The translations under genes were made by a program, and so were the position numbers. The notes beneath the pieces are model-generated. The model was given only the letters and a program-made list of their open reading frames with translations, was not told the origin of the DNA and made no database searches. Below, in pieces: positions 4,428-20,827 of a stretch of 33,120 bases of DNA (its first letter is position 1; each line of letters opens with the position of its first letter). Origin of the DNA: a bacterium (GTDB lineage Bacteria; Patescibacteriota; Minisyncoccia; Minisyncoccales; CG1-02-41-26); NCBI GenBank assembly GCA_030619905.1, contig JAUXAO010000001.1:183051-216170 (forward strand), written 5' to 3'.

Positions 4428-4463
4428 TGTTCTACCGAGTACAGCAGTACCATTGCCTTCATC

Positions 4464-7400: not shown

Positions 7401-8843
7401 CAAAGCGCCGAAGCGGAAGAATACGCAACTTTAAAGATTGGAACAAACACTGATATCAGGATGTGGAACTCTACTTCTTCCAATTACACTATTGATGCTT
7501 CCGGCTCTTTATATTCTCAAGACCACAATTATGAAGATGGCAAACTTCAAATCTGGGGTGATTATCATACCACCTCTACTGATTATTGGAATTATGCTGA
7601 TGATTTTGATGGAGCAGGTAGTGCTAACCGCCCATGCCAGGTAACTATTAACTCTAATACTTCTATTACTGTTGACAGCGGCGAGACTTTGGAAATTAAA
7701 GGAGGAGAAGCTACTTCTTCAGATATTACTATAATTAATGCTTCAGCTTCATGGGATTTAAATAATAATGGGACTACCACTATTCAGGAAGCTACCATTA
7801 ATTACTTAAACCCAGCTACAGGTACTATTACTGTTTTAAATACAACTTTAAACAATGAAGATACTCCTGAGTCTGGTGCCACCCTTAATGTTGACTGGTA
7901 TTTAGGAGGTCATGTAGTTGATGCCAATTCTACTTCTACTGATGTTGTTAATGCTACCACCACTATTTCGGAAGAGAGTACTACTTCTCAATCTACTGTT
8001 TGGGAATGGTCAGGAAGTGGTTGGGGAACAGCTTCAACCACTCAGACTACTTTAACTGATGCTTCAGGCCTTTTTCCTCAGCCCGGCACTAATGGCGCCA
8101 TTCGGATCAGAGAATACTCAGCGACAAGTACGGCTACTACCTATTACAAATATAATTTGGCAATTACAGCTAATGGTTTCAGTAATTATAATTATTATAA
8201 CGATCAAGGAACTAATTATATAGCTTCGGCTTCAAGTAGTGATGGTGATGTTGATACCTGTATTTCTGAAACATGGCAGAGAGATGATATTGATGCTAAT
8301 AATACTGAACAAACCTTAAATGAACCGCCGACCACTGGAACCTGGTATGTTGGTATGGATTCTGACTTGGAGTTTGGAGTGGATTCTTTAACAGTCAACA
8401 TAGGACCTTTAAATGATATCAACAACCTTACGGCCACGGCTACTACCATAACCTATGTTACTAGTACGGCTGGTTATCTAATTCAGGTTTATGATTCGGC
8501 CGGTAATGACGGAACACTGACAGCTACCTCAAGTCCTTTCATTCCTAGATGGGATTATAATAATGATGCTCCTGATCCTTGGGGGACTTACTGTAAAAAC
8601 AATGCCAGTTTTTGCGGCTTTGGTTATACCACTAGTGATGATAATTTAACTGGCGATAACCGTTTCGGTAGTGCCACTGAGTATGCCGGCTTTACCAGTT
8701 CCACTGAACCAGTAGCAGACCGAGGGACAGGTAGCTGGAAGGGCGAACCAGACACTATCACCTACAAGGTCTCTGTTCCTGAAAGCCAGGAACCGGAGAC
8801 GTATGATACGACTATAACGTATGTATGTACTGCTCAATACTAA
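4464..8843 (+). CDS. Giant secreted adhesin-like protein, C-terminal part (FISUMP domain, beta-repeats, WxL-like end)
   Basis: This continues the upstream frame after the TGA at 4425. It has no signal peptide, and its ATG falls inside the DUF1566-like domain, so it is probably not an independent gene. After that domain ends (YVRCARE) comes a carboxypeptidase-regulatory-like Ig module (ISGTVYTGEETG). Long Ser/Thr/Gly beta-repeats follow, with recurring blocks such as NSFYNLTFNG and GGWTF that suggest a beta-solenoid. A FISUMP domain (about residues 495-714: IGDQCWMTENLDY, ICPSGWHIPS, LPAGYRD, LWSSTE, GFSVRCLQD) interrupts these repeats. The final 150 residues resemble the small secreted protein at 10238-10873 (QEPETYDTTITYVCT against QEAETYADTLTITAT), suggesting a WxL-like cell-surface domain. 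There is no C-terminal membrane segment. Function as a surface display or adhesion protein is inferred. Confidence 0.8.
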   Translation: MNTNYGEFYASETFPKSLNTVYVRCAREQTDVPSVSNSWLIIQASLKPAPPPYITISGTVYTGEETGPIGAGRTVKVKINGDGEYSTSTDSDGTYSIPNVTINEVNDVVTVFLVTNSYQERANTVTLASSTSNNIGGLNLYQNRIIIRHEGDGPITITDLDKYDYEQDTDILFTASSTPATLTASSTSEFFIWSGDTFQTGGAGGNISLYDVDIRGTFTATSTQTISVSGSWFASSTATFTAASSTVTFTATTTGKTITTAGNSFYNLTFNGSGGGWTFQDVATTSATTTISNGTLSQGANNFITRSLTIASNATFTKATGGGILIFEGSGEGYFEDSNETKNNLGNVQIGNSPASTNLKSDFWADSLTVNSGDIFRTKGYEVNITNYITIYGTYDCTDTGGEGDETITTLGTNWTVDSGATFTAASSTITFTATTTGKTITTAGNSFYNLTFNGPGGGWTFQDNTTSTNNFTISNGTITGPSSGIIAVGNNWLNGVTCDTLSYEGKDYNTVLIGDQCWMTENLDYDNGCESVEWVNDSDEGWCGYYDDAGSDDTYGLLYQWSAAMNGTTTEGAQGICPSGWHIPSHDDWTDLERQICSDIGNSGCETTFPKNTTTTGYLGDGEAPAMAASTTLWSDGALESDPDFATSGLDILPAGYRDTDGAYTSRSGYALLWSSTETGTDAWYRVLRYVVTGVYRASYDKASGFSVRCLQDSPADGNFTHNDSTVRFYATDSGNTITSGGSSSFYNLTFDGSNGGWTLQDSATSTNNFTISQGTVTSTTSTLAVGGDLDVSNGTFKNNSGKVLFNSDSTGKNITTGGTGNSFHDIEFNGSGGWTFNTGDHDINNDFTITSGTVTSTPGTLLVGGNWLNSTGTFNATSGTVTFDAGSTGKTIDPGSSPFNIITFDNGSGGWTITANATSTNNWNMTNAQSFAATSSITIEVKGNYIISDSIPAVTTWNSNSTLYLNSESAYTVGSKNQSAEAEEYATLKIGTNTDIRMWNSTSSNYTIDASGSLYSQDHNYEDGKLQIWGDYHTTSTDYWNYADDFDGAGSANRPCQVTINSNTSITVDSGETLEIKGGEATSSDITIINASASWDLNNNGTTTIQEATINYLNPATGTITVLNTTLNNEDTPESGATLNVDWYLGGHVVDANSTSTDVVNATTTISEESTTSQSTVWEWSGSGWGTASTTQTTLTDASGLFPQPGTNGAIRIREYSATSTATTYYKYNLAITANGFSNYNYYNDQGTNYIASASSSDGDVDTCISETWQRDDIDANNTEQTLNEPPTTGTWYVGMDSDLEFGVDSLTVNIGPLNDINNLTATATTITYVTSTAGYLIQVYDSAGNDGTLTATSSPFIPRWDYNNDAPDPWGTYCKNNASFCGFGYTTSDDNLTGDNRFGSATEYAGFTSSTEPVADRGTGSWKGEPDTITYKVSVPESQEPETYDTTITYVCTAQY
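5178..5306 (+). repeat. 129-bp internal repeat, copy 1 (second copy at 5727-5855)
   Basis: The segments 5178-5306 and 5727-5855 are highly similar at DNA level and encode nearly the same 43 residues (TFTAASST... to GGWTFQD). The period is 549 bp. More diverged copies follow downstream (about 6640-6750 and 7080-7210), consistent with stepwise duplication of a beta-repeat. Confidence 0.8.
5727..5855 (+). repeat. 129-bp internal repeat, copy 2
   Basis: This is the second copy of the 43-residue beta-repeat block described at 5178-5306, differing mainly at third codon positions. Confidence 0.8.
6441..6600 (+). other. Candidate DGR variable repeat in the FISUMP domain
   Basis: From GAC ACC GAT GGC to the GFSVRC motif the codons change character. 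About twenty end in C (TAC, GTC, CGC, AGC, GCC, GGC, CTC), against mostly T- or A-ending codons around it. Asn, common elsewhere in the protein, is absent here. This is what adenine-specific mutagenesis of AAC codons leaves behind. The invariant frame (AW-R-L-Y...K-GFSVRC) is, from memory, that of FISUMP domains diversified by DGRs. No template repeat or reverse transcriptase is in the window. Confidence 0.65.
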
Positions 8844-8880
8844 TATGCGGAAAATGGTGTACAAATAATTAGAAGGATTT

Positions 8881-10020
8881 ATGGATAAAAAATACAAAAA
8901 AGTTTCAGTTCTGTTTAATATTTGGTTTCCAGTTGCTTTAGTATTATTAATTAGTATGGGCTTTGTAGTTCCTTGTATAACAAATGCTCAGATTAGTGTT
9001 TCACCTAGATTGGCTGTCAGTCCTCATACATTTGAGATTGATTTCTTTCCCGGAGAATCAATAACTAAAGAAATCAAAATTACTAATAAAAGTGAAGCAG
9101 CTTTTCCTATGTTAGTAAGAGTGGTTAATTTTACGGCCAGTGACGAAACAGGAAGCACATCATTTGACGAAGTATCAGAAGACCCGTCAATTTCTTCTCG
9201 TAAATGGTTTGAAATTGAAAATCCCAATTTCATTTTGGATGCAGGTGAAACAGAAAAAGTTAATTTTACCATTTCTGTTCCTGAAAATGCCGAGCCGGGC
9301 GGTCATTATGCTGTAATGTTTTTTGAACCTCAGTTACCATCCTTTTATTTTGAAGAAGATAAGCCGCGGGTTGTTCCAGTAATTGGAGTTTTGTTTTTGT
9401 CTTCTGTAAAAACATTTACCTTAGAGCCAGAAGTTAAGGAGAAATTAGAAGTAGTTGAATTTGCCGTACCCAAAGAAGAAAGATTAGTTGCTCTGGAAAA
9501 TCTTACCTCTGCCTTTATTGGAGGAATAGTTCAGGCGGCCAGTGAAGTTACTATAACTAAAAAATCTCCTTCCAATTTTATTTTACGAATCCAGAATAAT
9601 GACATTTATCATATCAAGCCATTTGGCAAGGTTTTAATTCTTAATATCTTTGGCAAGAAAGTGGGAGAAGCGGAAGTTCCCAAAACAACGATTTTACCGG
9701 GAAGGATCCGGCAATTCCCGGTTGAGTTTTTACTGGAGACTCCGAAATATTTAAAATGGCTGCCAGAATCAGTTTCTAATTTCTTAGCAAAGAATTTCTT
9801 CTTTGGAAAATATCAAGCAAAACTTGTGATGGAGACAAGTGATAAAAGACAAGGGACAGAAATGGATTGGCTGCTTATTGCCAATATGAGTTTCTTTGCT
9901 TTCCCCTGGCAATTCTGGCTGGTATTTATTTTAACTGTTCTACTTTTCATTCTTATTTTAGTAAAATATAGAAGAAGAATAATTTTGTCATTAAGAGTGC
10001 TAACCAGGGGCAATGAATAG
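8881..10020 (+). CDS. DUF916/WxLIP-like membrane-anchored surface protein (first copy)
   Basis: This 379-residue protein has a signal peptide (hydrophobic segment about residues 12-35, then NAQISVSP). Two beta-sandwich domains follow, of the kind found in WxL-interacting proteins: ISVSP...FEIDFFPGESITKEIKITNKS, and the hallmark VPENAEPGGHYAVMF. A C-terminal membrane helix (about residues 345-366) ends in a short basic tail (RVLTRGNE). The ATG is preceded by a clear ribosome-binding site (AGAAGGA, 5 bases away), which is unusual in this window. It starts 37 bp after the giant adhesin gene, so it may bind or anchor that protein's WxL-like end. The paralogue at 10939 shares the PENxEPGGHY motif, the AFPW(Q/K) motif before the helix, and the VL(T/V)RG tail. 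Family assignment is moderately sure; the partner role is inferred. Confidence 0.75.
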   Translation: MDKKYKKVSVLFNIWFPVALVLLISMGFVVPCITNAQISVSPRLAVSPHTFEIDFFPGESITKEIKITNKSEAAFPMLVRVVNFTASDETGSTSFDEVSEDPSISSRKWFEIENPNFILDAGETEKVNFTISVPENAEPGGHYAVMFFEPQLPSFYFEEDKPRVVPVIGVLFLSSVKTFTLEPEVKEKLEVVEFAVPKEERLVALENLTSAFIGGIVQAASEVTITKKSPSNFILRIQNNDIYHIKPFGKVLILNIFGKKVGEAEVPKTTILPGRIRQFPVEFLLETPKYLKWLPESVSNFLAKNFFFGKYQAKLVMETSDKRQGTEMDWLLIANMSFFAFPWQFWLVFILTVLLFILILVKYRRRIILSLRVLTRGNE

Positions 10021-10045
10021 TTAATCAGAGGCCCGTTTCCCGGCA

Positions 10046-10072
10046 GTTTATAGGAGGTAAATCTCTATAAAC
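10046..10072 (+). terminator. Hairpin after the first WxLIP-like gene
   Basis: GTTTATAG and CTATAAAC form a perfect 8-bp inverted repeat with an 11-base loop, followed by a modest T-rich stretch (TTTAATATTG). It lies 26 bp after the stop codon and could be a weak terminator or a 3'-end stabilising hairpin. Confidence 0.4.
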
Positions 10073-10124
10073 TTTAATATTGTTTTGAAATATACCATAA
10101 TACAATAAACCTGTGGAAAACTTT

Positions 10125-10154
10125 TTGACTTAATAAGAAGTTTTGTAGTAAAAT
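10125..10154 (+). promoter_or_regulatory. Putative promoter for the WxL-like gene
   Basis: TTGACT and TAAAAT are separated by 18 bp, about 83 bp upstream of the ATG at 10238. The hairpin at 10046 lies just before it, which suggests that a new transcript starts here. Confidence 0.5.
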
Positions 10155-10237
10155 AAATTTATGTTAAAATAAATAAGTTATAAAAAATATAAAAGTCGGA
10201 ATAAAGTTTTGGATAAAATTTAAAAATCAAATAAGAA

Positions 10238-10873
10238 ATGGCAAAGATAATTAAAAGAAATATAGATATAATCATAGTGGCTGGGATTGGGCTCTCTTTA
10301 GTAATCGTGGCGATGATAGGGGTGTATCAAAGGATACCGATGGCTCCTGTTAATTATGTCAGCGCTGCTACTACTGGTATAAGTGTTTCGGCAACGGTGC
10401 AAGAGTGGCTTACCTTGGGAGTTTCTACCTCATCGGTAGCTCTTTTACCTGATTTAGTTAGTTCAGCTGGTGTTACTGCCATTGCCAGTAGTAGTGACAT
10501 AAATATAACTGTTGGAACTAATAATGCTGCCGGATGGATTCTTAGTGTTGAAAGCACAAATGGAAAATTAACAACATCAACTTATGATATTGATACCTGT
10601 AATGTAACCTCTAGTATTGATGCTGGTACGGATATGTATGGACTCAATGCTACTACTTCACTTGGAACTGTTACCATTAGCCCCAACTATAATTATTGGG
10701 GACAAGATATAGTAGGTACAGCATCTACCACAGATCAGACATTCGCAACGAAGGATGATAAAAACGCAAGTACAACTGTAGCCACAATAAAAATTATGGC
10801 AGCTTGTGACGACCAGCAGGAAGCCGAAACTTACGCCGATACTCTGACCATAACTGCCACCGGAGGTACATAA
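10238..10873 (+). CDS. Small secreted WxL-like surface protein
   Basis: This 211-residue protein has an N-terminal basic segment and a hydrophobic helix (residues 12-30). A likely cleavage site (NYVSAATTG) precedes an all-beta Ser/Thr-rich domain. The pattern resembles WxL-type domains: an N-terminal VSATVQEWLTLGVS strand, a central ITVGTNNAAGWILSVES strand, and a C-terminal ETYADTLTITAT strand. The same strand order appears at the C-terminus of the giant adhesin. There is no membrane anchor after the domain, so it is probably released or held non-covalently. It sits between two WxLIP-like genes, matching the usual WxL/WxLIP gene pairing in Gram-positive bacteria. It has a candidate promoter of its own. 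The WxL relationship is inferred from pattern, not from a database match. Confidence 0.65.
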   Translation: MAKIIKRNIDIIIVAGIGLSLVIVAMIGVYQRIPMAPVNYVSAATTGISVSATVQEWLTLGVSTSSVALLPDLVSSAGVTAIASSSDINITVGTNNAAGWILSVESTNGKLTTSTYDIDTCNVTSSIDAGTDMYGLNATTSLGTVTISPNYNYWGQDIVGTASTTDQTFATKDDKNASTTVATIKIMAACDDQQEAETYADTLTITATGGT

Positions 10874-10938
10874 TGAATTTGTAATTCAGTTTGGTTTGAA
10901 GAAATAGTTTAACCTCTAATAATTTTATATTTAATTTG

Positions 10939-11859
10939 ATGAAGAGGAATATTCTCTTAGTTGTGCTTGTTGGAGGGATAATTTTTAGCCCGCTCCTTTT
11001 TGTGCAGGCAGCTGTTGGAATTTCACCTGTAACTTTTGAATTGACTGGCAGTCCGGGGGATGTAATTATAAATCAACTTAAGGTGTATAATCCTTCAACG
11101 GATACAATAATCGGAATTAAAATGGAGGTAGAAGACATCGCTCCAACAGGAGAGACAGGTCATGTGAGAGTAGAGCCAGCTGAGACAGAAACTTATTCTC
11201 TTGCTCGATGGGTGAAAACAGAGCCTGAAGAATTTACTTTAAATCCCAGAGAAGAAAAATTTGTCACTTTTACTATTACTATTCCAGAAAATGTAGAACC
11301 AGGTGGTCATTACGGTGTGGTTTTAGCAGGAACAAAAGCAGTAGCTGGGCCAGGAGCGGTTGGAGCCACAATAGTTGAAAGAGTAGGAGCTTTAGTTTTA
11401 TTGATAACTCCAGGAGAAATGAAAGAAGAGTTGGTAATAAAAGACTTTACCACCCCTAATTATTCTGAATATGGGCCAGTAGATTTTACGATAAGGTTTG
11501 AGAATAAAGGAACAGTTCATGTAAAACCAGTTGCTTCCATAACTATTACTAATTGGTTAGGGGAAAAAGTAGGTGAAATCCAATTACCTCAGCGGAATGT
11601 TTTACCAAATGCTGTCAGAAAATTTGAAGTTTCCTGGGATAAAAAATGGCTTTTTGCTGGAAAATATACTGCCACTTTAACTGGGAATTATGGAGTATCT
11701 CGTAGCTCTGTCAGTTCGGTAGTAATTACTTTTTGGGCTTTTCCTTGGAAGGTGGGAATAGGAATATTATTAATCATAATATTCTTTATTCTAACTAGAA
11801 AAAGGTGGGCTACTGCTTTTAAGGTTTTGGTTAGAGGAGAGAAAATAATAAAGGGATAG
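10939..11859 (+). CDS. DUF916/WxLIP-like membrane-anchored surface protein (second copy)
   Basis: The 306-residue protein starts at ATG 10939; the track's TTG at 10936 is one codon upstream and less likely. A signal peptide (about residues 1-23) is followed by the WxLIP-like N-terminal domain (AVGISPVTFELTGSPGD, then PENVEPGGHYGVV). A second beta-sandwich carries HVKPVASITITNWLGEKVGE. The C-terminus has an FWAFPWK motif, one membrane helix (about residues 272-291) and a basic tail (KVLVRGEKIIKG). The paralogue at 8881 shares each landmark, so the two arose by duplication. A TATATT box ends 7 bp before the ATG, suggesting a leaderless transcript. A role in binding the WxL-like protein and anchoring it at the cell surface is inferred from family and context. 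Confidence 0.75.
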   Translation: MKRNILLVVLVGGIIFSPLLFVQAAVGISPVTFELTGSPGDVIINQLKVYNPSTDTIIGIKMEVEDIAPTGETGHVRVEPAETETYSLARWVKTEPEEFTLNPREEKFVTFTITIPENVEPGGHYGVVLAGTKAVAGPGAVGATIVERVGALVLLITPGEMKEELVIKDFTTPNYSEYGPVDFTIRFENKGTVHVKPVASITITNWLGEKVGEIQLPQRNVLPNAVRKFEVSWDKKWLFAGKYTATLTGNYGVSRSSVSSVVITFWAFPWKVGIGILLIIIFFILTRKRWATAFKVLVRGEKIIKG

Positions 11860-11887
11860 TGACAAGAGACAAGAGACAAGCGACAAG
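11860..11887 (+). repeat. Heptamer repeat (RGACAAG family), copy set 3
   Basis: Four tandem units TGACAAG AGACAAG AGACAAG CGACAAG begin directly after the stop codon of the second WxLIP-like gene and fill half of the intergenic gap. Confidence 0.85.
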
Positions 11888-11919
11888 ATCATCCGGTTTA
11901 TTCTGGGTGATTTTTTGTG

Positions 11920-11925
11920 TATAAT
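11920..11925 (+). promoter_or_regulatory. Consensus -10 box (TATAAT) for the dockerin gene
   Basis: A perfect TATAAT lies six bases before the ATG at 11932. Transcription would start at or next to the start codon, giving a leaderless mRNA. The -35 region is weak (TTTATT at 11897). Confidence 0.55.
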
Positions 11926-11931
11926 AAGTAA

Positions 11932-12897
11932 ATGCGAAAGACAAGCGACAAGCGACAAGTGACAAGAGACAAGAGACAAGAGACAAAAAAGACACGAAAT
12001 TTTCGGTTCAGTGCCAGTTTTGTACTTTTGTTTAGTGTTAGTTTGGTGGTATGTATTTTTTTTCCTTTATTAGGATATTGTCAAACTCCGACAGTGAATA
12101 TTTCGGTAAGCGCTGAAGTAGCTGGTGAAGCTCCTGAGCCCACGCCACCTCCGCCAGGTGGAGGTGGCGTGGTACCACCTTCTCCTGCGGCAAAGGTTAT
12201 CTTTGAAGGGAGAGCTTATCCTAATGCCTTTTTAACTATTTCAAAAAATGGGGTAGTGGCTGCTACTTTTTTTGCTGAAGAATCTGGTTTGTTCAAGAAA
12301 GAATTAACTGGAATTCGTGGAGGAGTTTATAATTTTGGAATCTGGGCGGAAGATACAAAAGGCCGTAAATCAGTTACTTTAAGTTTCAGTGTCAGTATTT
12401 TAGGAGGAAGAACTACTACCATATCTGGAATTTTTATTTCACCTACTATTTCTCTTATTCCCACTCAAGTGGAAAGAGGGAACGAGGTTGATATTTTTGG
12501 TCAAGCTTTTCCCCGGAGCCAAATTAAAATATTTGTTTCTTCACCAAAAGAAACAGTAAAAGACACCCTTAGCGATAAAGAAGGAAACTGGAAATATAAA
12601 TTAGACACTACTCCCTTAGAAGAAAGAGAACACGAGGCTAGAGCTAAAGCTCTTTTCGGAGATGGTGAACAAAGTCCATTTTCTCATACTCTTTCTTTTT
12701 TGGTTCTGGCTCCGGGAGCTTTGGTTTGTGAAGGGGCAGATTTGAATTTTGATGGAAAAGTGAATCTGATTGATTTTTCAATTCTCTTGTATTTCTGGGG
12801 ACAGAGTAAGCCTTCTAATCGTTGTGCCGATATAAATTTCGATGGTATAGTTGATTTAGTGGACTTCTCAATAATGATGTACTGGTGGACAGGTTAG
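11932..12897 (+). CDS. Secreted dockerin type I domain protein
   Basis: The 321-residue protein begins with an unusual basic segment (MRKTSDKRQVTRDKRQ) encoded by heptamer repeats. A signal peptide (about residues 27-50, ending GYCQT) and a short beta strand (VNISVSAEV) follow, then a Pro/Gly linker and two Ig-like domains (FEGRAYPNAFLTISK; FGQAFPRSQIKIF). The C-terminus is a complete type I dockerin with two calcium-binding loops, DLNFDGKVNLIDF and DINFDGIVDLVDF. Each has the D-x-N-x-D-G...D pattern followed by the second-helix segment. Dockerins bind cohesins, and four cohesin-domain genes follow immediately, so it is probably a surface ligand held by one or more of them. No enzyme domain is present. 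An ATG downstream of the repeats is not available before the signal peptide, supporting this start. Confidence 0.85.
   Translation: MRKTSDKRQVTRDKRQETKKTRNFRFSASFVLLFSVSLVVCIFFPLLGYCQTPTVNISVSAEVAGEAPEPTPPPPGGGGVVPPSPAAKVIFEGRAYPNAFLTISKNGVVAATFFAEESGLFKKELTGIRGGVYNFGIWAEDTKGRKSVTLSFSVSILGGRTTTISGIFISPTISLIPTQVERGNEVDIFGQAFPRSQIKIFVSSPKETVKDTLSDKEGNWKYKLDTTPLEEREHEARAKALFGDGEQSPFSHTLSFLVLAPGALVCEGADLNFDGKVNLIDFSILLYFWGQSKPSNRCADINFDGIVDLVDFSIMMYWWTG
11940..11988 (+). repeat. Heptamer repeat (RGACAAG family), copy set 4, coding
   Basis: Seven tandem GACAAGN units overlap the start of the dockerin gene and encode its DKRQVTRDKRQETK segment. The array is in the same orientation as the intergenic set at 11860. 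Confidence 0.85.
12140..12172. repeat. 13-bp perfect GC-rich inverted repeat in the dockerin-gene linker
   Basis: CCACGCCACCTCC and GGAGGTGGCGTGG form a perfect 13-bp stem with a 7-base loop. The stem encodes the PTPPPPGGGGVV linker. It is strikingly GC-rich for this AT-rich region and would form a very stable mRNA or DNA hairpin about 210 bases into the gene. Confidence 0.85.
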
Positions 12898-12926
12898 AAC
12901 AATCTTATAAAATCAAAAAATATTCT

Positions 12927-14114
12927 ATGATATTAAAAATTTTTAAAACCCAATTCTTAATTCTTGTCGTTTGTTGCTTGTTGTTCGTTGCTTCATCAGT
13001 GGGAGCAGCTAAATTATATTTAGCACCTTCAAATCAAACAATTTATCAGGATAACTCCTTTATTGTTGAGGTGAAATTAGATACCGAGGGGGAAGAAATA
13101 AATACTGTGGAAGCAAATTTAATCTATTCGTCAAATTTATTAGAAGTAATTGATATTAGTAAAGGGAATTCTATTTTAACCCTTTGGTTAAAAGAACCCG
13201 ATATCCAACAAAAAGAAGTTTCCCTTATCGGCGGAATACCCAATGGCTTTCAAGGAGAAGAGGGGCTGATTGCCAAATTGATTTTTAGGGGAAAAGAGAT
13301 AGGAGAGGGAATAATCAGTTTTAAAGAAAATTCAAAAGTATTATTGAATGATGGACAAGGAACCAAAGCCCGATTAAGTTTTTTAGAAGGAAGTTATGAA
13401 ATTATCAAGAGGCCAGAAGGACTGCCTGTAATTTCTTCTAAAACTCATCCTGACCAGAATGAATGGTATAGAATAACTAGTTTATCTTTGTACTGGGATT
13501 TAATGGAAGGAGCCGAATATAGTTGGATTTTGAGTAGAGATCCTTTAACTGAACCAGATGAGATTCCAGATAAGCCTGAACCAAAAGAAGGAGTAGCTTT
13601 TTGGATGGGGGCTATGGAGTATGATTTAAAAGAAGAGGGAGATGGAATTTATTACTTTCATTTAAAACAAAAATTATCTGATAAGGGTTGGTCAGAAAGA
13701 ATTACTTACCGAACAATGATAGATACAATACCACCAGAAGAATTCGAACCCCAAATTGGTCAAGACCCGACAATGTATGACGGTAAATATTTTTTAAGTT
13801 TTGTTGCTCAAGATAAAACTTCGGGAGTTGACCATTATGAAGTTACTGAAGTTCCCTGGCTTTCTTTTGAAAAAACAAAAGAGTGGAAGATGGTTCAGAG
13901 TTCTTATTTATTAGGAGACCAAAAATTGAGAAGTGTCATAAAAGTTAAAGCCGTGGACAAAGCAGGGAATGAACGAGTAGCAGAAATTAAGCCGCCTTAC
14001 AAAATAACGTGGGGAGATGCACTTATTTTATTGTTAATCTTGATTGGAATTGGAGTAATTTTATGGTCGGCTAAGAGAATTTCAGCCGTTAAAAAGTTTC
14101 CAATTTCCAAGTAG
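12927..14114 (+). CDS. Membrane-anchored cohesin-domain protein 1
   Basis: The 395-residue form starts at ATG 12927, directly before a signal peptide (FLILVVCCLLFVASSVGAA). A GTG at 12885 would add 14 residues and overlap the dockerin gene by 13 bp; either is possible. A cohesin-type beta-sandwich follows: KLYLAPSNQTIYQDNSFIVEV, then VEANLIYSSNLLEV, and the late motif SKVLLNDGQGT. A linker (PVISSKTHPDQNEWY) leads to Ig-like domains with DKTSGVDHYEV and DKAGNE motifs. A C-terminal membrane helix (about residues 366-384) has a basic tail. Cohesins are the receptors of dockerins, and the neighbouring gene ends in a dockerin. It is probably a cell-surface anchor. The hydrophobic signal core is encoded by inverted heptamer repeats. 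Confidence 0.8.
   Translation: MILKIFKTQFLILVVCCLLFVASSVGAAKLYLAPSNQTIYQDNSFIVEVKLDTEGEEINTVEANLIYSSNLLEVIDISKGNSILTLWLKEPDIQQKEVSLIGGIPNGFQGEEGLIAKLIFRGKEIGEGIISFKENSKVLLNDGQGTKARLSFLEGSYEIIKRPEGLPVISSKTHPDQNEWYRITSLSLYWDLMEGAEYSWILSRDPLTEPDEIPDKPEPKEGVAFWMGAMEYDLKEEGDGIYYFHLKQKLSDKGWSERITYRTMIDTIPPEEFEPQIGQDPTMYDGKYFLSFVAQDKTSGVDHYEVTEVPWLSFEKTKEWKMVQSSYLLGDQKLRSVIKVKAVDKAGNERVAEIKPPYKITWGDALILLLILIGIGVILWSAKRISAVKKFPISK
12961..12994 (-). repeat. Heptamer repeat, inverted, coding a signal peptide
   Basis: TTCTTGT CGTTTGT TGCTTGT TGTTCGT TGCTTC is the reverse complement of the RGACAAG heptamer family. In this orientation it encodes the hydrophobic LVVCCLLFVA core of a signal peptide. Confidence 0.65.
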
Positions 14115-14130
14115 ATAATTTCTAAATAAA

Positions 14131-15372
14131 GTGAAAAGATTAATTTTACTTTTAGTTATTTTAATATTTTCTTTCTCCGTAACTTTTCCTGTTAAAGCAG
14201 AGTCATCTTCTCTTTATCTTTTTCCTTCTTCAGGGAGTTTTTTGGTTGGCAGCACTTTTACTGTTTCCATTTTTCTAAATACCGAAGGAAGCGAAATTAA
14301 TGTAGTTTGGGCAGACTTAAAATTCCCTCCAGAAATTTTACAAATTACTTCTCCAACCACTGGCAGTTCTTTTATTTCCGAATGGATTATTCCACCAAAC
14401 TATTCAAACGAAAGGGGAATTATCAGTTTTAGAGGAGGAGTTCCTGGAGGGATTATTACCTCGGCCGGCTTAGTTTCCTCAATTACATTCAGGGCAGTTT
14501 CTTCCGGAAAAGCAAGAATTGAATTTAGCGAGGAATCAAAAGTCTTGTTAAATGACGGCAAAGGGACAGATATTCTTGTTGATACCCGCGGCGGAGAATA
14601 TCAGATTTTAATTCCTCCTCCTGAGGGACCAAAAGTTTTTTCGCCCACTCACCCCAATTCTAATATTTGGTACTCAGATTCGAGTCCAAGCTTTTCCTGG
14701 GAAAAAGAAAAAGGGGTTACTAATTTCTCTTGGAGTTTTGACCAAAATCCTCAGGGCAGGCCGGACGGGATCTCAGAAGGAGATAAAACTCTAGTTTCTT
14801 TTTCAGAAGTTAAAGATGGAATTTGGTATTTTCATATCAGACAAAAAAAAGAAGGAATCTGGGGAAAGACCACTAATGTTCCGATTCGGATAGATACTGC
14901 TCCTCCTAATGATTTTAGTCCCAGAGTTGAAACTTATTCCAGATTAGTTGGTTATCAAACCATGGTTTATTTTGAAACCAAAGATAATTTTTCCGGCGTA
15001 GACCATTATGAAATAAATATAATTGATTTAAGCGTTTTTCCTTCAACTCAGTCATTTTTTGCAGAGGTTACAAGTCCTTATAAGGTTCCTTTTCAAGAAG
15101 CCGGTAAATATAATGTAATTATTCGGGCTATAGACAGGGCAGGAAATATTAGAGAGAGTGAGACAAGGTTCCGTTCGATGACTCCTTTAATTACTCATAT
15201 CGAATTGATGACTCCTTTAATTACTCATATCGAAGGAAAGGGGTTAGAAATCAGGGGAGTTCTTTTTTCTTGGTGGCTAATTGGAATCCTGATATTTATT
15301 TTTATATTTGTAATAGGAATAATAATCTGGCAATTAGTTAAAAAATATACTGCTAAGCATAGAGAATATTAA
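14131..15372 (+). CDS. Membrane-anchored cohesin-domain protein 2
   Basis: The 413-residue protein has a GTG start 16 bp after the previous gene. It has a signal peptide (residues 1-23, ending PVKAE) and a cohesin-like domain (SLYLFPSSGSFLVGSTFTVSI to SKVLLNDGKGTDI, about residues 27-150). An Ig-like domain opens with PPPEGPKVFSPTHPN, and a second contains DNFSGVDHYEI and DRAGNIRE. A membrane helix (about residues 376-400) precedes a short basic tail. An exact 30-bp tandem duplication just before the helix gives MTPLITHIE twice. Domain order matches the other three cohesin proteins, and it is closest to protein 3, with which it shares the PPPEGPKVFSPTHP linker. It probably acts as a surface receptor for dockerin-bearing proteins; no enzymatic motif is seen. 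Confidence 0.8.
   Translation: MKRLILLLVILIFSFSVTFPVKAESSSLYLFPSSGSFLVGSTFTVSIFLNTEGSEINVVWADLKFPPEILQITSPTTGSSFISEWIIPPNYSNERGIISFRGGVPGGIITSAGLVSSITFRAVSSGKARIEFSEESKVLLNDGKGTDILVDTRGGEYQILIPPPEGPKVFSPTHPNSNIWYSDSSPSFSWEKEKGVTNFSWSFDQNPQGRPDGISEGDKTLVSFSEVKDGIWYFHIRQKKEGIWGKTTNVPIRIDTAPPNDFSPRVETYSRLVGYQTMVYFETKDNFSGVDHYEINIIDLSVFPSTQSFFAEVTSPYKVPFQEAGKYNVIIRAIDRAGNIRESETRFRSMTPLITHIELMTPLITHIEGKGLEIRGVLFSWWLIGILIFIFIFVIGIIIWQLVKKYTAKHREY
15178..15234 (+). repeat. 30-bp in-frame tandem duplication
   Basis: ATGACTCCTTTAATTACTCA... occurs twice with a 30-bp period and no mismatch across the 27-base core. It adds ten residues (MTPLITHIEL) just outside the membrane helix of cohesin protein 2. 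The identity suggests a recent event. Confidence 0.9.
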
Positions 15373-15373
15373 T

Positions 15374-16825
15374 ATGAATGATTTAGAAAATAACACTAAT
15401 ATAAAACTAAAATGCACTGAATTATTAATAGTGGTTAGTTTAATATTGGTGTTTATTAACTGGTTGCCTGCAGTAAAAGCAGCAGGGGCTTCCTTATATC
15501 TTTCTCCTAATTCAGGCACTTTTTATGTGGGTAGTACTTTTGATGTATCCATATTTGTTAATACCGGGGGAGAAGATATTAATGCTGTTCAGACAGATTT
15601 GAAATTTGATCCCAAGAAACTTCAGATAGCAAGTCCTACAGCTGGAAAATCTTTTATTTCAGTTTGGATTTCCCAACCAACTTATTCCAATATTCACGGG
15701 ACAGCTTTTTTCCAAGGAGGAATGCCTTCTCCAGGGATTAATACTTCTGCTGGATTAGTTTCTACTATTACTTTCCGAGTTATTGCTCCTGGGGAAACAA
15801 CTATTTATTTCTTAGATTCTTCAAGAGTTCTTTTAGATGATGGGAAAGGAACTGATATTCTGACTTCTATGGGGAGAGGTGTTTACATTCTTTCTATTCC
15901 TCCACCCGAGGGACCCAAGGTTTTTTCTCCAACTCATCCAGACCAAAATAAATGGTACAAGAATCCTAATCCTACTTTTTCTTGGGAAAAAGAAAAAGGA
16001 GTTACTGATTTTAGTTACAGTTTGGATTTTGATTCTCAGGGAATTCCAGACAATACTCCAGAAGGCGATTTTACCTCAATATCTTTTACTGATTTGAAAG
16101 ACGGAATTTGGTATTTCCATGTCAAGGCAAAAAAAGCTGGAATATGGGGAGGAACCAGCCATTATATAGTTCAACTTGATTCTACTCCTCCAGCTTCATT
16201 TACTCCGGGAGTAGAACCCTCAACTAAAACAAGCGTTTCTCAACCTATTGTTTCTTCTATTACCACTGATGCTCTTTCTGGGTTCGACCATTTTGAAGTC
16301 AAGGTGATTGATATCAGTCCTGGTCGGGAAGAAAAGGAGGTTGCCTTTTTTGTTGAAGCAGTTAGCCCATATCAACTTCCAGCTCTTGAAATTGGGCAAT
16401 ATATGGTAGTGATTAAAGCTTTTGATAAAGCTGGGAACTGGCGGAATGAATCAATAAAGATTGAGATTATTCCCAAAGGGATTGCCCTAACAGGAAAAGG
16501 AATTTGGTTCTTTGGGATATTTATACTCTGGTGGCTGATTATAATAATTCTCATTTTGCTCTCTCTTCTGATTATCGGACTTTTAATTCTATGGTGGAGG
16601 ACATATCGGCGGTCTCAAAAAGGAAAGAAATGGAGATTAAAAGAAGGAGAAAATAATTTAAAAGATTTTCCCTTAAAAAAACTATCTTTAGAAGATGAAA
16701 AAATAGAACTTATGATCCGGAAAGAAGGATTAGGAAAATTAGTCGAAGATATTTTAAAAGAAGAAGAAGAAGTTGAAAAAAGGCAGAAAGAATTGGGGAG
16801 AAAGAAAAAGAAACCAAGACCTTAG
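15374..16825 (+). CDS. Membrane-anchored cohesin-domain protein 3 (C-terminal tail shortened by frameshift)
   Basis: The 483-residue protein starts one base after the preceding stop codon. Signal segment: residues 17-38 (LPAVKAAGA). Cohesin-like domain: about residues 40-170 (SLYLSPNSGTFYVGSTFDVSI to SRVLLDDGKGTDI). Two Ig-like domains follow (PPPEGPKVFSPTHPDQ; ALSGFDHFEVKV with DKAGNWRNE). A strong membrane helix (about residues 383-413) precedes a long charged cytoplasmic tail. The tail ends ELGRKKKKPRP, but the -1 frame continues a highly charged coiled coil for another 50 codons to TAA 16951. One base is thus missing in the GGGG run near 16797, or slippage occurs there. It follows cohesin proteins 1 and 2 and is probably co-transcribed with them. 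Confidence 0.8.
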   Translation: MNDLENNTNIKLKCTELLIVVSLILVFINWLPAVKAAGASLYLSPNSGTFYVGSTFDVSIFVNTGGEDINAVQTDLKFDPKKLQIASPTAGKSFISVWISQPTYSNIHGTAFFQGGMPSPGINTSAGLVSTITFRVIAPGETTIYFLDSSRVLLDDGKGTDILTSMGRGVYILSIPPPEGPKVFSPTHPDQNKWYKNPNPTFSWEKEKGVTDFSYSLDFDSQGIPDNTPEGDFTSISFTDLKDGIWYFHVKAKKAGIWGGTSHYIVQLDSTPPASFTPGVEPSTKTSVSQPIVSSITTDALSGFDHFEVKVIDISPGREEKEVAFFVEAVSPYQLPALEIGQYMVVIKAFDKAGNWRNESIKIEIIPKGIALTGKGIWFFGIFILWWLIIIILILLSLLIIGLLILWWRTYRRSQKGKKWRLKEGENNLKDFPLKKLSLEDEKIELMIRKEGLGKLVEDILKEEEEVEKRQKELGRKKKKPRP

Positions 16826-16953
16826 AAGAGAAAAGAGAGATAGAAATGGAAAGACACAAAATAGAGCAAAAAAGAGAGAAAATAGAAAAGAAGAGATGGG
16901 AAATGGAACAAGAAAAAGAAAAAATAATAAATAGAATGAAAGAAATCGAATAA
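16795..16953 (+). pseudogene. Frameshifted C-terminal coiled-coil continuation of cohesin protein 3
   Basis: In the -1 frame relative to the upstream gene, from the GGGG run at about 16796, the sequence reads ELGEKEKETKTLEEKREIE and continues as an uninterrupted charged coiled coil. It ends KIINRMKEIE and then TAA at 16951. This explains all of the 136-bp A/G-rich gap before the next gene. An ATG at 16845 could start only a 35-residue piece. It may be a true mutation, a sequencing error in a homopolymer, or programmed slippage. Confidence 0.7.
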
Positions 16954-16961
16954 TTAAATAA

Positions 16962-18401
16962 ATGATTAATCTATTAAACAATATTAAAATAAAACTGAAA
17001 GACACTAAGTTATTAGTAGTGATTGGTTTAATATTGGTGTTTATCAGTATACTACCTGCAGTAGTACAGGCAGCAGAAGCATCTCTATTTTTCAGCCCAA
17101 GCGATGGAATATATCATATAGGGAGCACATTCTTGGTCAAGGTAAAGGTTAATAGTGATGGTACTCCAATCAATGCTGCTCAATCTAAAGTTTTGTTTCC
17201 TCAAGAAATATTAGAAGTGAAAAGTATTTCCAAGGCTGGTTCAATATTTACTCTTTGGCCAGAAGAACCGGTTTTTTCAAACTCAGAAGGAGAAGTTAGT
17301 TTTAAAGGAGGAATTCCAGCTCCTGGATTTACGGGAACAGATAATATTTTAACTATTAATTTTCAAGCCAAGAAAACAGGACAAGCAAAAGTTTCATTTT
17401 CTGAAGCAAAAGTGTTAGCTGCTGATGGGAGAGGAACTAATATTTTGAAACTTACTCAAGAAGCAATCTTTTCAATTACTGAAATTTACCCAGAGGTTAG
17501 CAGGGCCCCTGTTCCCCCTCATCCATTTGACGTAATTGTTGATAATGAAGGAGATCCAACTAATCCTCGTCCATTTCTATATTTTGAAACCAAGGATGAT
17601 TTATCAGGCATAAGCCATTATGAGATAAAAATTGGCCAGGGGGATATATTCTCTTTAGTCATGGTCGAAACTAATCCTCTCCGTCTTTTCCATCAGGCGC
17701 CAGGTTCTTATGAGATTTTAGTCAAAGCAATAGACCAAGCTGGAAATTTTGAAGAATCTTCAGCATTATTAAATATTGAATCTATCCCCATCCCTGAAAT
17801 TTCAGTTTATCCGAGAATTCATACTGCTGGAGAAGAGGAATTTTATATTGCTGGAACAGCGCCTGCAGATTTGACGATAATGATTTTTTTCAAAAGAGAC
17901 CAGGAATTAGTAAAGACTTGGGAGGTTAAAAGTGATAAAAATGGGGATTGGTCTTTTTATACCAGTGATCTTTTTGAATCAGGTAATTATTTAATCTCAA
18001 CCAGGAGTAAAGATCAAAGAGGAGCTATAAGCGATTCTTCGCCGGAATATCAAATAGAAGTGATATTGGCTGGAATTTCTATTGGCCCTTTAATGGTTAC
18101 TTACCGAGCATTATTTCCGATATTAATAATTTTAATTGTTTTGATCACAGGAATTGTTATTTGTCTTATCCTATTTAAGGTAAGAAAGATTAAAAAAGAA
18201 ATTCAGGAAGCTGCCGAAAGTTTAAAAAACACCTTCAATGAAGTAAAAAGAAAGGCCATAGAAAAAATTGAATATCTTGATTCTAAACCAGGGTTAAATC
18301 CAGATGAAGAGAAACTGCGCGATGAGCTTGTAAATATTTTAGAAAAATCCGAGGAAGTAATAGCCAAGGAAATTGAGGATATCAGAGAAGAATTGAAATG
18401 A
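16962..18401 (+). CDS. Membrane-anchored cohesin-domain protein 4
   Basis: The 479-residue protein has a signal segment (LLVVIGLILVFISILPAVVQA) whose DNA closely matches that of cohesin protein 3, indicating recent duplication or conversion. The cohesin-like domain runs over about residues 40-165 (SLFFSPSDGIYHIGSTFLVKV to AKVLAADGRGTNI). One Ig-like domain follows (DDLSGISHYEIKI, DQAGNFEE). A further sandwich then appears that the other three lack (ISVYPRIHTAGEEEFYIAGTAP). A membrane helix (about residues 383-405) precedes a long cytoplasmic coiled coil of about 70 residues (KKEIQEAAESLKNTF...). It ends in TGA, showing that TGA works as a stop here. The last member of the tandem cohesin set, it probably holds dockerin ligands outside while its tail acts inside the cell. 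Confidence 0.8.
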   Translation: MINLLNNIKIKLKDTKLLVVIGLILVFISILPAVVQAAEASLFFSPSDGIYHIGSTFLVKVKVNSDGTPINAAQSKVLFPQEILEVKSISKAGSIFTLWPEEPVFSNSEGEVSFKGGIPAPGFTGTDNILTINFQAKKTGQAKVSFSEAKVLAADGRGTNILKLTQEAIFSITEIYPEVSRAPVPPHPFDVIVDNEGDPTNPRPFLYFETKDDLSGISHYEIKIGQGDIFSLVMVETNPLRLFHQAPGSYEILVKAIDQAGNFEESSALLNIESIPIPEISVYPRIHTAGEEEFYIAGTAPADLTIMIFFKRDQELVKTWEVKSDKNGDWSFYTSDLFESGNYLISTRSKDQRGAISDSSPEYQIEVILAGISIGPLMVTYRALFPILIILIVLITGIVICLILFKVRKIKKEIQEAAESLKNTFNEVKRKAIEKIEYLDSKPGLNPDEEKLRDELVNILEKSEEVIAKEIEDIREELK

Positions 18402-18416
18402 GAAAAAACGATTAAT

Positions 18417-18827
18417 ATGCCAATTGAAAAATCTGCCGGAGCAATTGTTTTCCGGCGGAATAAAAAAATAAAATATCTTTTAATTCAATACGGTTGGGGT
18501 CATTGGGAATTTCCCCGAGGGCTTATTGAAAAAGGAGAATCTTTGGAAGATACTGCTCGACGCGAAATTAGAGAGGAAACAGGGATAGAAAATATTAGAT
18601 TTATCTCTGGATTTAAAGAATGGATAAAGTTTTTCTTCAAGCTCAAAGGAAAAAATATAATGAAGATTGCCACTTTCCTTTTAGCCGAGACCAAAACTGA
18701 AAAGGTAAAACTATCTTATGAGCATAAGGATTATGGCTGGCTCGATTACAAAGAAGCCCTTAATCGTTTAACTTTTGAAAATTCTAAAGAGGTCCTCAAG
18801 AAGGCAAATGACTTCCTTAAGAAGTAG
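18417..18827 (+). CDS. Nudix hydrolase (diadenosine-tetraphosphatase-like)
   Basis: This 136-residue cytosolic protein has a complete Nudix box, GLIEKGESLEDTARREIREETGI, at about residues 35-57, fitting G-x5-E-x7-R-E-U-x-E-E-x-G-U. The metal-binding REIREE glutamates are intact. The start (SAGAIVFRRN) and the WEFPRG segment are typical of the bis(5'-nucleosyl)-tetraphosphatase branch, which removes Ap4A and related nucleotides; the exact substrate cannot be told from sequence. It starts 15 bp after the TGA of cohesin protein 4, in the same frame by chance. The alkyltransferase-like gene follows 5 bp downstream, so the two probably form a small housekeeping pair. Confidence 0.9.
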   Translation: MPIEKSAGAIVFRRNKKIKYLLIQYGWGHWEFPRGLIEKGESLEDTARREIREETGIENIRFISGFKEWIKFFFKLKGKNIMKIATFLLAETKTEKVKLSYEHKDYGWLDYKEALNRLTFENSKEVLKKANDFLKK

Positions 18828-18832
18828 GAATT

Positions 18833-19108
18833 ATGAATATGATAAGTTTTAAAGAGAAAGTTTTTGGGGTAGTGGAAAAAATTCCGGGAGGTGAGGTTGT
18901 AAGTTATAGAGAAGTGGCACAAAGAGCCGGCAGACCTCGGGCTTGGCGGGCCGTAGGTAATATTTTGAGCAAAAACAAAAACCCTGAGTTGCCTTGCCAC
19001 AGGGTGATAAAATCAAATGGGGAAATCGGGGGTTATAATAAGGGAGCAGAAAGGAAGAAAGAACTTCTAAAGAAAGAAGAAGTGAAGATAAACAAATTTA
19101 GAAGTTGA
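18833..19108 (+). CDS. MGMT/Ogt-like DNA alkyltransferase domain protein
   Basis: The 91-residue protein corresponds to the DNA-binding C-terminal domain of O6-alkylguanine-DNA alkyltransferases. It shows the helix-turn-helix (VVSYREVAQRAGRPRAWRAVGN), the Asn-hinge region (LSKNKNPELP), and the active-site PCHRV with its acceptor cysteine. Stand-alone proteins of this size lack the N-terminal domain of full Ogt. They may repair O6-alkylguanine or act as alkyltransferase-like sensors; the presence of Cys favours a catalytic role. The C-terminal KELLKKE helix fits the family. Start: ATG 18833; the next ATG, two codons on, is equally possible. It follows the Nudix gene closely and ends in TGA. 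Confidence 0.85.
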   Translation: MNMISFKEKVFGVVEKIPGGEVVSYREVAQRAGRPRAWRAVGNILSKNKNPELPCHRVIKSNGEIGGYNKGAERKKELLKKEEVKINKFRS

Positions 19109-19132
19109 CAAGAATTGATGATTTTATATAAT
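19105..19132 (+). promoter_or_regulatory. Near-perfect sigma-70-type promoter
   Basis: TTGACA and TATAAT, both perfect consensus, are separated by 16 bp. The TATAAT ends 7 bases before the ATG at 19140, so transcription should begin at or within a base or two of the start codon. The -35 box overlaps the TGA of the preceding gene. Confidence 0.8.
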
Positions 19133-19139
19133 TAAACTG

Positions 19140-19355
19140 ATGAAAAAGAAGAATATTACAATTGAAGATTTAGCTAGAATGGTTCAAAAAGGATTTAGTG
19201 AAACGGCAAAAAGAAAAGAAGTCGATAGACGCTTTGATGGAGTTGACAAGCGTCTGGACAGAATTGAGAAACTTCTTATCGTTGATCACAGACAAAGAAT
19301 AGAGAAGTTGGAAATGGAAGTAAAAAATCTAAAAGAACTATTAGCAGTAAAATAA
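19140..19355 (+). CDS. Small coiled-coil protein of unknown function
   Basis: This 71-residue protein is not assignable to a characterised family. The N-terminus (TIEDLARMVQKGFSE) is followed by a heptad-patterned coiled coil (DRRFDGVDKRLDRIEKLL) and a second helix (RIEKLEMEVKNLKELLA). Proteins with this LARMVQKGF...RFD.VD.RLD.IE layout are, from memory, frequent in Parcubacteria; their role is unknown. It has its own consensus promoter and a probable leaderless start, and it ends at a bidirectional terminator shared with rplT. It is therefore likely an independently expressed single gene. Confidence 0.75.
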   Translation: MKKKNITIEDLARMVQKGFSETAKRKEVDRRFDGVDKRLDRIEKLLIVDHRQRIEKLEMEVKNLKELLAVK

Positions 19356-19371
19356 ATCTGATTTTGGCAAA

Positions 19372-19404
19372 CAAAAAAGGCCTCTTTAAGAGCGCTCTTT
19401 TTGT
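19372..19404. terminator. Bidirectional terminator between convergent genes
   Basis: AAAAAAGGCCTCTTTAAGAGCGCTCTTTTTG can fold into a hairpin (CTCT/AGAG core extended by GC and A/T pairs, with small bulges). It is flanked by A- and T-runs on either side. It lies between the stop codons of the small coiled-coil gene (plus) and rplT (minus), and would serve both. Confidence 0.65.
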
Positions 19405-19420
19405 TTTTGGTGAGGAACAA

Positions 19421-19768
19421 TTATTTTTTTACTTCTTCCATTATTTTTTTGAAAACTTCTGGTTTTTCTTTAGCTAATTGGGATAAGATTTTCCTGTCTA
19501 TCTCAATCTTTTTTTCTTTTAATTGGTGAATGAATTTATTATAAGGTAAACCAAGTTTCCGACAGGCAGCACCAATTTGAATCTGCCATAATTTTCGAAA
19601 ATCTCTCTTTTTTACTTTTCTATCTCGGTAAGCATAAGTCCAGGCTTTTTGTAAGGCCTGTTTTGCTGATTTATATTTTGATTTCCTGCCCCAGCGGAAT
19701 CCTTTGGTCTGTTTCAGGGCTTTTTTTCTTCGTTTATGAGCAGTTTTACCTCGTTTTACTCGAACCAT
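19421..19768 (-). CDS. rplT: Large ribosomal subunit protein bL20
   Basis: The 115-residue protein has the full bL20 pattern: a basic N-terminal extension (MVRVKRGKTAHKRRKKALKQTKGF), then AYRDRKVKKRDFRKLWIQIG-type core residues (here LWQIQIGAACRKLG) and the C-terminal globular domain. bL20 binds 23S rRNA early in 50S assembly. Length is normal for the family. It is the last gene of the minus-strand block infC-rpmI-rplT, the standard bacterial order, and starts 4 bp after rpmI ends. In many bacteria this operon is autoregulated by L20; no recognisable operator is evident here. Confidence 0.97.
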   Translation of the reverse strand: MVRVKRGKTAHKRRKKALKQTKGFRWGRKSKYKSAKQALQKAWTYAYRDRKVKKRDFRKLWQIQIGAACRKLGLPYNKFIHQLKEKKIEIDRKILSQLAKEKPEVFKKIMEEVKK

Positions 19769-20469: not shown

Positions 20470-20488
20470 GTAGATAAAAATTATTTAG

Positions 20489-20827
20489 TGGAGGTGGAGG
20501 AAATCGAACCCTCGTCCAGAAATTCTTCCGAAACAATTCTACAAGCTTAGTCTATTTTATCTTTAAGGTAAGAGAATATGAAATAGACAAAATTTCTCAT
20601 ACCCGAGCTCCATAATTTTGGTAATAATCTGGAGCAAGAATAATTACCTATCTCGATATATGGCACCTCTTACTGCTTATCGAGAATCAGCAGGGAGATG
20701 GCATTACGCTAAAGCGTAAGCGGGTTTTGAAAATAAGTTTGCACTTATTAATTCTGAGAGTTTAACGAGATTTCAGAGCTCGGCTTGCTTATTCCAGATG
20801 AAGTTTCTGTCAAAGCCTTTCACCCCC
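20489..20827 (-). ncRNA. ssrA: Transfer-messenger RNA (tmRNA)
   Basis: On the minus strand the RNA begins GGGGGTGAAAGGCTTTGACAG and ends GGACGAGGGTTCGATTTCCTCCACCTCCA. GGGGGTG pairs with CACCTCC as the acceptor stem. GAGGG-TTCGATT-TCCTC forms the T arm, and CAGAAACTTC pairs with GAAGAATTTCTG as helix P2. The tag reading frame is GCA AAC TTA ... GCG TAA at 20742-20704, encoding ANLFSKPAYALA. It ends in the hydrophobic YALA-type degradation signal. The terminal CCA is not encoded (genomic ACTA follows), so it must be added. Its 5' end overlaps the last 18 bp of smpB. tmRNA with SmpB frees stalled ribosomes. Confidence 0.95.

Follow-up and report, generated by a model that had tools for sequence, protein, structure and literature searches.

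A dockerin protein beside four membrane-anchored cohesin proteins

In a nearly complete, 617-kb genome of the Patescibacteria, a secreted protein that ends in a dockerin (DOC) is followed by four tandem genes for cohesin proteins (COH1 to COH4). Our results suggest that this set of genes probably fastens a pilus-like structure to the cell surface, and the reading to which we give reasonable, though not high, confidence is that of a non-cellulosomal cohesin-dockerin pair that would serve as a non-enzymatic surface anchor for a Pam/WxL-like fibre. The window, by which we mean the whole stretch of 33,120 nucleotides that was analysed, from 183051 to 216170 of contig 7, carries the genes in the order A, B (together 3-8843), C, D, E, DOC, COH1, COH2, COH3 and COH4 on the + strand. 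The open reading frames of DOC (11932-12897) and of the four cohesin proteins (12885-18401) lie where an earlier note, made from the sequence, had placed them.

Features of the locus:
3-4427, + strand: A, upstream part of a large A/B protein; an in-frame TGA lies between A and B and the gene start lies before the window
4464-8843, + strand: B, part of a large surface protein with a FISUMP domain (PF09603, 1.9e-32); its C-terminal end resembles that of D by alignment
8881-10020, + strand: C, second WxLIP-like membrane protein, of a genome-wide family shared with E (PF06030, 1.9e-4, below cut-off)
10238-10873, + strand: D, small protein, secreted, with a weak likeness to Pam pilins (NCBIfam CPR_Pam_pilin_C, 9.2e-4; 19.3 bits, cut-off 55)
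10936-11859, + strand: E, WxLIP-like membrane protein directly upstream of DOC (PF06030, 9.1e-5, below cut-off)
11932-12897, + strand: DOC, secreted protein of 321 aa with a signal peptide, a Pro/Gly linker, two Ig-like domains and a C-terminal dockerin (Pfam Dockerin_1, 2.5e-6; AF2 pLDDT 81)
12739-12804, + strand: dockerin calcium loop and helix 1, DLNFDGKVNLIDFSILLYFWGQ (loop positions 1, 3, 5, 9 and 12 intact)
12829-12894, + strand: dockerin calcium loop and helix 2, DINFDGIVDLVDFSIMMYWWTG (shares 13 of its 22 residues with repeat 1)
12885-14114 (likely start 12927), + strand: COH1, with signal peptide, cohesin, Ig-like part, TM helix and a tail of about 10 aa (homology to COH2; orthologues match Pfam Cohesin)
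14131-15372, + strand: COH2, with cohesin, Ig-like domains, TM helix and a tail of about 7 aa (Pfam Cohesin 1.8e-4, just below cut-off)
15374-16825, + strand: COH3, with cohesin (aa 39-175), Ig-like domains, TM helix (about 386-410) and a tail of about 70 aa (Pfam Cohesin 1.3e-8; AF2 pLDDT 86.7)
16962-18401, + strand: COH4, with cohesin, Ig-like domains, TM helix and a conserved cytoplasmic helical tail (Pfam Cohesin 7.3e-7)
18192-18398, + strand: cytoplasmic tail module of COH4, about 70-75 aa, ...KEIEDIREELK in the window copy (present in 46 of 196 genomes of the order)

A and B share one reading frame, split by the TGA (window 4425-4463), and a single open reading frame in a related locus (L082) matches both together. 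The TGA may be a nonsense mutation, a sequencing error or a site of readthrough in a surface protein, more than 3,300 aa long, whose start lies ahead of the window. A promoter and terminator scan of 8500-19500 gave counts within noise (35 versus 30.5 +/- 6.0; 8 versus 8.2), and the operon borders therefore cannot be set. Downstream of the locus a tmRNA gene (20488-20827, - strand, tag ANLFSKPAYALA) adjoins the IF-3 gene.

The dockerin of DOC

DOC scores 28.0 bits against Pfam Dockerin_1 (PF00404), above the cut-off of 22.9, which makes its C-terminal domain a type I dockerin by profile, and both of its 12-residue calcium loops are complete (DLNFDGKVNLID and DINFDGIVDLVD), just as the earlier note had read them. 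The same hydrophobic pattern recurs in the two halves (LI...LY and LV...MY), at positions that we take to be those contacting the cohesin in known complexes. Given this pattern and the residues common to the repeats, the two halves would fit two equivalent modes of cohesin binding. The dockerin is also the best-conserved part of the protein, holding most of the invariant columns in an alignment of 11 relatives, and a profile of these relatives matches solved dockerins (2y3n_B, 7.8e-6). DOC begins with an N-terminal hydrophobic segment and lacks a membrane helix at its C-terminus; for DOC and the cohesin proteins alike, signal peptides and TM helices were assigned from hydropathy and structure models only. 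The named relatives of DOC belong to Nealsonbacteria, Paceibacterota, Kaiserbacteria, other Parcubacteria and Microgenomates.

The pairing of these two domains is that of cellulosomes, and it is to cellulosomal dockerins such as 2y3n_B that the dockerin of DOC is nearest in sequence, both of which would suit a cellulosome-like complex whose cohesins gather dockerin-tagged enzymes for polymer breakdown. However, a Pfam search of the genome for further dockerins, as had been proposed, returned that of DOC alone, and it sits on an Ig protein. A scaffoldin serves many tagged enzymes, whereas here four cohesin proteins face one dockerin, the opposite arrangement, and no polysaccharide-degrading domain or carbohydrate-binding module (CBM) scored above the Pfam cut-off in the window. 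The absence of glycoside hydrolases and CBMs reported earlier thus holds for the proteins scanned. Since Pfam finds a single dockerin in the genome, neither such an enzyme nor a CBM was detected at the locus and each protein bears one cohesin, we rejected the cellulosome, which we regard as highly improbable.

The cohesin proteins

Against Pfam Cohesin (PF00963, cut-off 24.1 bits) COH3 and COH4 score 35.6 and 29.9 bits, and COH2 falls below at 22.2. COH1 is missed by Pfam and is assigned by homology: it shares 33% identity with COH2 across 334 residues (E 6e-55), and Pfam Cohesin is matched by three of the nine proteins in its set of orthologues, at best with 1.3e-5. Identity is 53% between COH2 and COH3 and 27% between COH3 and COH4. 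For COH1, the ATG at 12927 is a likelier start than the GTG at 12885, which overlaps DOC. The AF2 model of COH3 consists of a nine-stranded N-terminal domain, more beta domains and a long TM helix, and it superposes on PDB cohesins that were solved with their dockerins (2vn6, 6kgf and 4uyq) with TM-scores of 0.72-0.79. The model confirms the nine-stranded jelly-roll fold of cohesins for the N-terminal domain of COH3. These results bear out the claim of four tandem cohesin proteins, and hydropathy and models agree with the layout given for each of them, namely a signal peptide, Ig-like spacers, a C-terminal membrane helix and a cytoplasmic tail. Each protein carries one cohesin rather than an array, and the cohesins that Pfam finds in the genome are confined to this locus.

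Conservation of the gene pair

Counting full-length DOC and strong cohesins in a sample of 196 genomes of the order, we found DOC in 46 and cohesins in 64, and every genome with DOC is among the latter (Fisher 2e-30, a value that ignores relatedness). The next matching gene after DOC is a same-strand cohesin at 47 of 51 places, within 130 bp at 40 of them, and between one and six cohesin hits lie within 9 kb of DOC. A compact form, seen in several loci, combines DOC with one short-tail and one long-tail cohesin (L072, L073 and L078).

Such an association is expected if DOC and the cohesins bind each other, and it argues against a reading in which they do not. There, the dockerin would be a calcium-stabilised end cap or bind another partner, and the cohesins would bind other surface ligands, as animal TMEM132 may. 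Consistent with a lack of binding, DOC with its dockerin stands without a cohesin gene in the examined stretch of the Microgenomates-type loci L090 and L091, and 18 genomes have cohesins without a strong DOC. Also in its favour, the outward residues on the predicted binding sheet show no significant excess of conservation over those on the back sheet (p = 0.35, with strand orientation inferred); the most conserved cohesin motifs lie on strands 5 and 6 and the loop that follows strand 6. Several of the 18 cohesin-only genomes are, however, contig-edge cases, and the co-occurrence in 46 of 46 genomes, the adjacency of the genes and the coincidence described in the next section between exchange of the dockerin for a TM helix and absence of neighbouring cohesins all speak against it. 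We consider this reading unlikely, if worth keeping in mind.

Several loci depart from the common layout. At 4 of the 51 places there is no cohesin on the same strand and contig as DOC. One locus has a second, diverged copy of the whole cluster shortly after the first (L064:11460-17968; a secreted protein, an anchor-like protein, DOC and two cohesins). Cohesin and dockerin also occur in single proteins (L025/L034, where L034 is G089; L035, from G022; and L079:7632-9353, from G030), which could form self-assembling chains. Between the first and second cohesin genes of L082 lies an O-antigen-ligase-like (Wzy_C) membrane protein with TPRs (12149-14419), which may glycosylate surface proteins.

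Exchange of the dockerin for a membrane helix

A sample of 287 genomes across the phylum yielded 34 dockerin-bearing relatives of DOC (32 full-length at E < 1e-30, plus those of G367 and G248, where inspection of the sequence confirmed the dockerin), and every one of them has a cohesin match of E 1e-27 or better in the same genome. Six relatives from other lineages (G392, G269, G464, G394, G384 and G478) keep the Ig part and end in or near a TM helix. None of these six has a cohesin domain within the surrounding 6-8 kb; genome-wide listings gave zero cohesin-family matches for G464, G394 and G384 and weak ones for G392, G269 and G478. A WxLIP-like gene lies directly upstream in five of the six.

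A tree of the Ig region requires about two changes between the dockerin and TM types of anchor, so the exchange reflects few events rather than many independent ones, and the relatedness of the genomes makes a p-value for its association with cohesins uninformative. Since the TM-type relatives stand without neighbouring cohesins, the simplest reading is that dockerin and cohesin together do the job of the TM helix, in other words that the pair would substitute for a built-in membrane anchor.

Pam-pilin-like and WxLIP-like neighbours

PF06030, the WxLIP peptidoglycan-binding domain, is matched by 11 of 12 members of the C/E family (best 1.8e-6), with the window copies below the cut-off, and PF11797 by 1 of the 12. 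The family has a C-terminal TM helix, as WxLIP has (PMC10599100). The WxL domain itself (PF13731) has no match anywhere in the genome even at E 10, and WxL membership of the locus was rejected on this ground. A WxLIP-like gene is found at most 1.5 kb upstream of DOC at only 27 of the 51 places.

By alignment, the C-terminal domain of D recurs in larger secreted proteins of related loci. The CPR_Pam_pilin_C model matches these secreted proteins of the relatives at 8.9e-6, 6.7e-7 and 4.5e-10, the best with 39.8 bits and all below the curated cut-off of 55. Such below-cut-off matches lie at 10238-10873 of the window and in three related loci (L082:7742-8884, L098:4464-5528 and L096:686-1741), and a wider Pam-like pilus family may exist in Patescibacteria. 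In L096, three genes in a row encode the Pam-pilin-like C-terminal domain, a protein of the WxLIP-like type and a DOC relative that is anchored by a TM helix and has a PamR-like part (2.8e-21). PamR is matched by the TM-type relatives of DOC and PamT by one DOC relative (L089), all below the NCBI cut-offs. The PamR and PamT models have no match to DOC, COH1-4, C, D or E of the window, and DOC and COH1-4 match no Pam model at all.

The shared pilin-like domain and the gene trio of L096 lead us to infer that the locus in the window is related to, or a variant form of, a Pam pilus locus in which the membrane anchor would have been split into a dockerin and cohesins. We do not claim Pam membership, because the matches stay under the NCBI cut-offs. 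In the part of the literature that we searched, no paper on the CPR Pam pilus system was found.

A conserved cytoplasmic tail on the last cohesin protein

Across related loci the tail of the first cohesin protein (COH1) is short, mostly 2-13 aa, and that of the last (COH4) is about 75 aa. Across the order the COH4-type tail ends in ...KEIKDIEKELK and is usually found on the last cohesin of the cluster. The module tracks DOC, which is also present in 38 of the 46 genomes that have it. The tail of COH3, by contrast with that of COH4, varies between genomes and is not conserved, so that of the earlier suggestion that the long cytoplasmic coiled coils of proteins 3 and 4 could pass on or organise binding, the part on protein 4 gains support and the part on protein 3 does not. 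Proteins of about 100 aa that seem to consist of a TM helix and the COH4 tail module without a cohesin occur in some genomes, for example G101 (C5:13948-14196), G178 (C47:8409-8654), G172 (C51:9389-9631) and G036 (C31:6874-7125).

Because the COH4 tail is conserved across genomes, it likely has a cytoplasmic partner, and through its helical tail COH4 would link the surface to the cell interior. We can only tentatively extend this to a trans-envelope, calcium-controlled tether, in which one dockerin adaptor clips a pilus-like fibre non-covalently onto several cohesin receptors and the COH4 tail joins docking to its partner, so that attachment of the fibre could be sensed or released.

The conserved tail would also suit adhesion to a host, with the cohesin receptors or DOC binding it directly (an archaeon, for example) and the tail signalling contact. 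Nealsonbacteria and other Minisyncoccota have been reported with methanogens (PMC13293708), and the Ig-rich folds are adhesin-like. Yet binding in the same cell to the dockerin encoded next door is a simpler account of the gene order, and we judge direct host contact improbable.

A proposed anchor for a surface fibre

We favour anchoring on the cell's own surface. The dockerin of the secreted DOC would plug into the cohesins of the four membrane-anchored receptors, presumably with calcium bound, and so keep DOC, along with any partner of its Ig domains, on the outside of the cell. The cargo would be a Pam/WxL-like fibre made of the pilin-like D and the large A/B protein, with the WxLIP-like C and E. 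The several cohesins could act as parallel attachment points, and COH4 would carry the link through the membrane to its cytoplasmic tail.

This anchoring is supported by the co-occurrence and adjacency of DOC and cohesins, by the single dockerin and single cohesin locus that Pfam finds in the genome and by the conservation of the dockerin, as well as by the dockerin/TM exchange, the tracking of DOC by the COH4 tail and the Pam-pilin-like neighbours. Against it stand the level conservation of the binding face, L090, L091 and the four places without a cohesin, the small number of changes behind the dockerin/TM exchange, the WxLIP-like gene near only about half of the DOC genes, Pam matches below their cut-offs and the lack of a Pfam WxL domain. 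The earlier proposal of a non-enzymatic pair that holds surface structures is strengthened by the conserved synteny with surface and pilin-like genes and by the dockerin/TM swap in relatives.

Comparison with known systems

In clostridial anchoring scaffoldins of the SdbA/OlpA type, a surface-fixed cohesin retains a dockerin-bearing partner. The locus resembles them in a weak sequence match to an SdbA-type cohesin (5g5d, 0.0055) and differs in having no enzymes, CBMs or cohesin arrays, a TM anchor with a tail, and Ig-like spacers. Cohesin and dockerin modules outside cellulosomes are already known (Peer et al. 2009, as cited in PMC10066038 and PMC6030884) and, as far as those citing papers describe them, are like ours in standing on enzyme-free surface proteins. 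What sets our locus apart is a single dockerin protein paired with several membrane-anchored cohesins in a conserved operon, together with a cytoplasmic tail that is likewise conserved and with pilin- and WxLIP-like neighbours.

WxL/WxLIP clusters encode a small secreted protein, a large secreted protein with a related C-terminal domain and an Ig-Ig-TM protein (PF06030), and reports of WxL proteins come almost exclusively from Lactobacillales and Bacillales (PMC10599100). The window locus brings together three protein types like these, with PF06030 matches below the cut-off. Unlike those clusters it has no detected WxL domain, and no cohesin-dockerin pair is described in them (PMC10599100). 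The likeness to the CPR 'Pam pilus system' (NCBIfam NF058581, NF058579 and NF058578) lies in the pilin C-terminal model, which matches D and the secreted proteins of related loci; the difference lies in the sub-threshold scores and in DOC and cohesins that match no Pam model. The cohesin-Ig-TM-tail layout of the COH proteins recalls the animal TMEM132 adhesion proteins, an already known class that combines a cohesin and Ig-like domains with a single TM helix and a tail in the cytoplasm (PMC6030884). Unlike at our locus, no dockerin homologues are detectable in vertebrates (PMC6030884), and the organisms are others and share no gene context with ours.

Our literature search, which covered part of the literature, found no description of the locus or of a cohesin-dockerin system in Patescibacteria. 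To our knowledge, the tether, if true, would be the first case of a cohesin-dockerin system that anchors a pilus in the membrane.

Little is known of how the tiny Patescibacteria attach proteins and fibres to their surface, and hence to their hosts. The locus offers a conserved, testable candidate anchor that employs, without enzymes, a protein pair ranking among the strongest known. The natural exchange of dockerin for membrane helix in relatives directly predicts the role of the pair, and the conserved cytoplasmic tail may provide a new handle on the organisation of the envelope.
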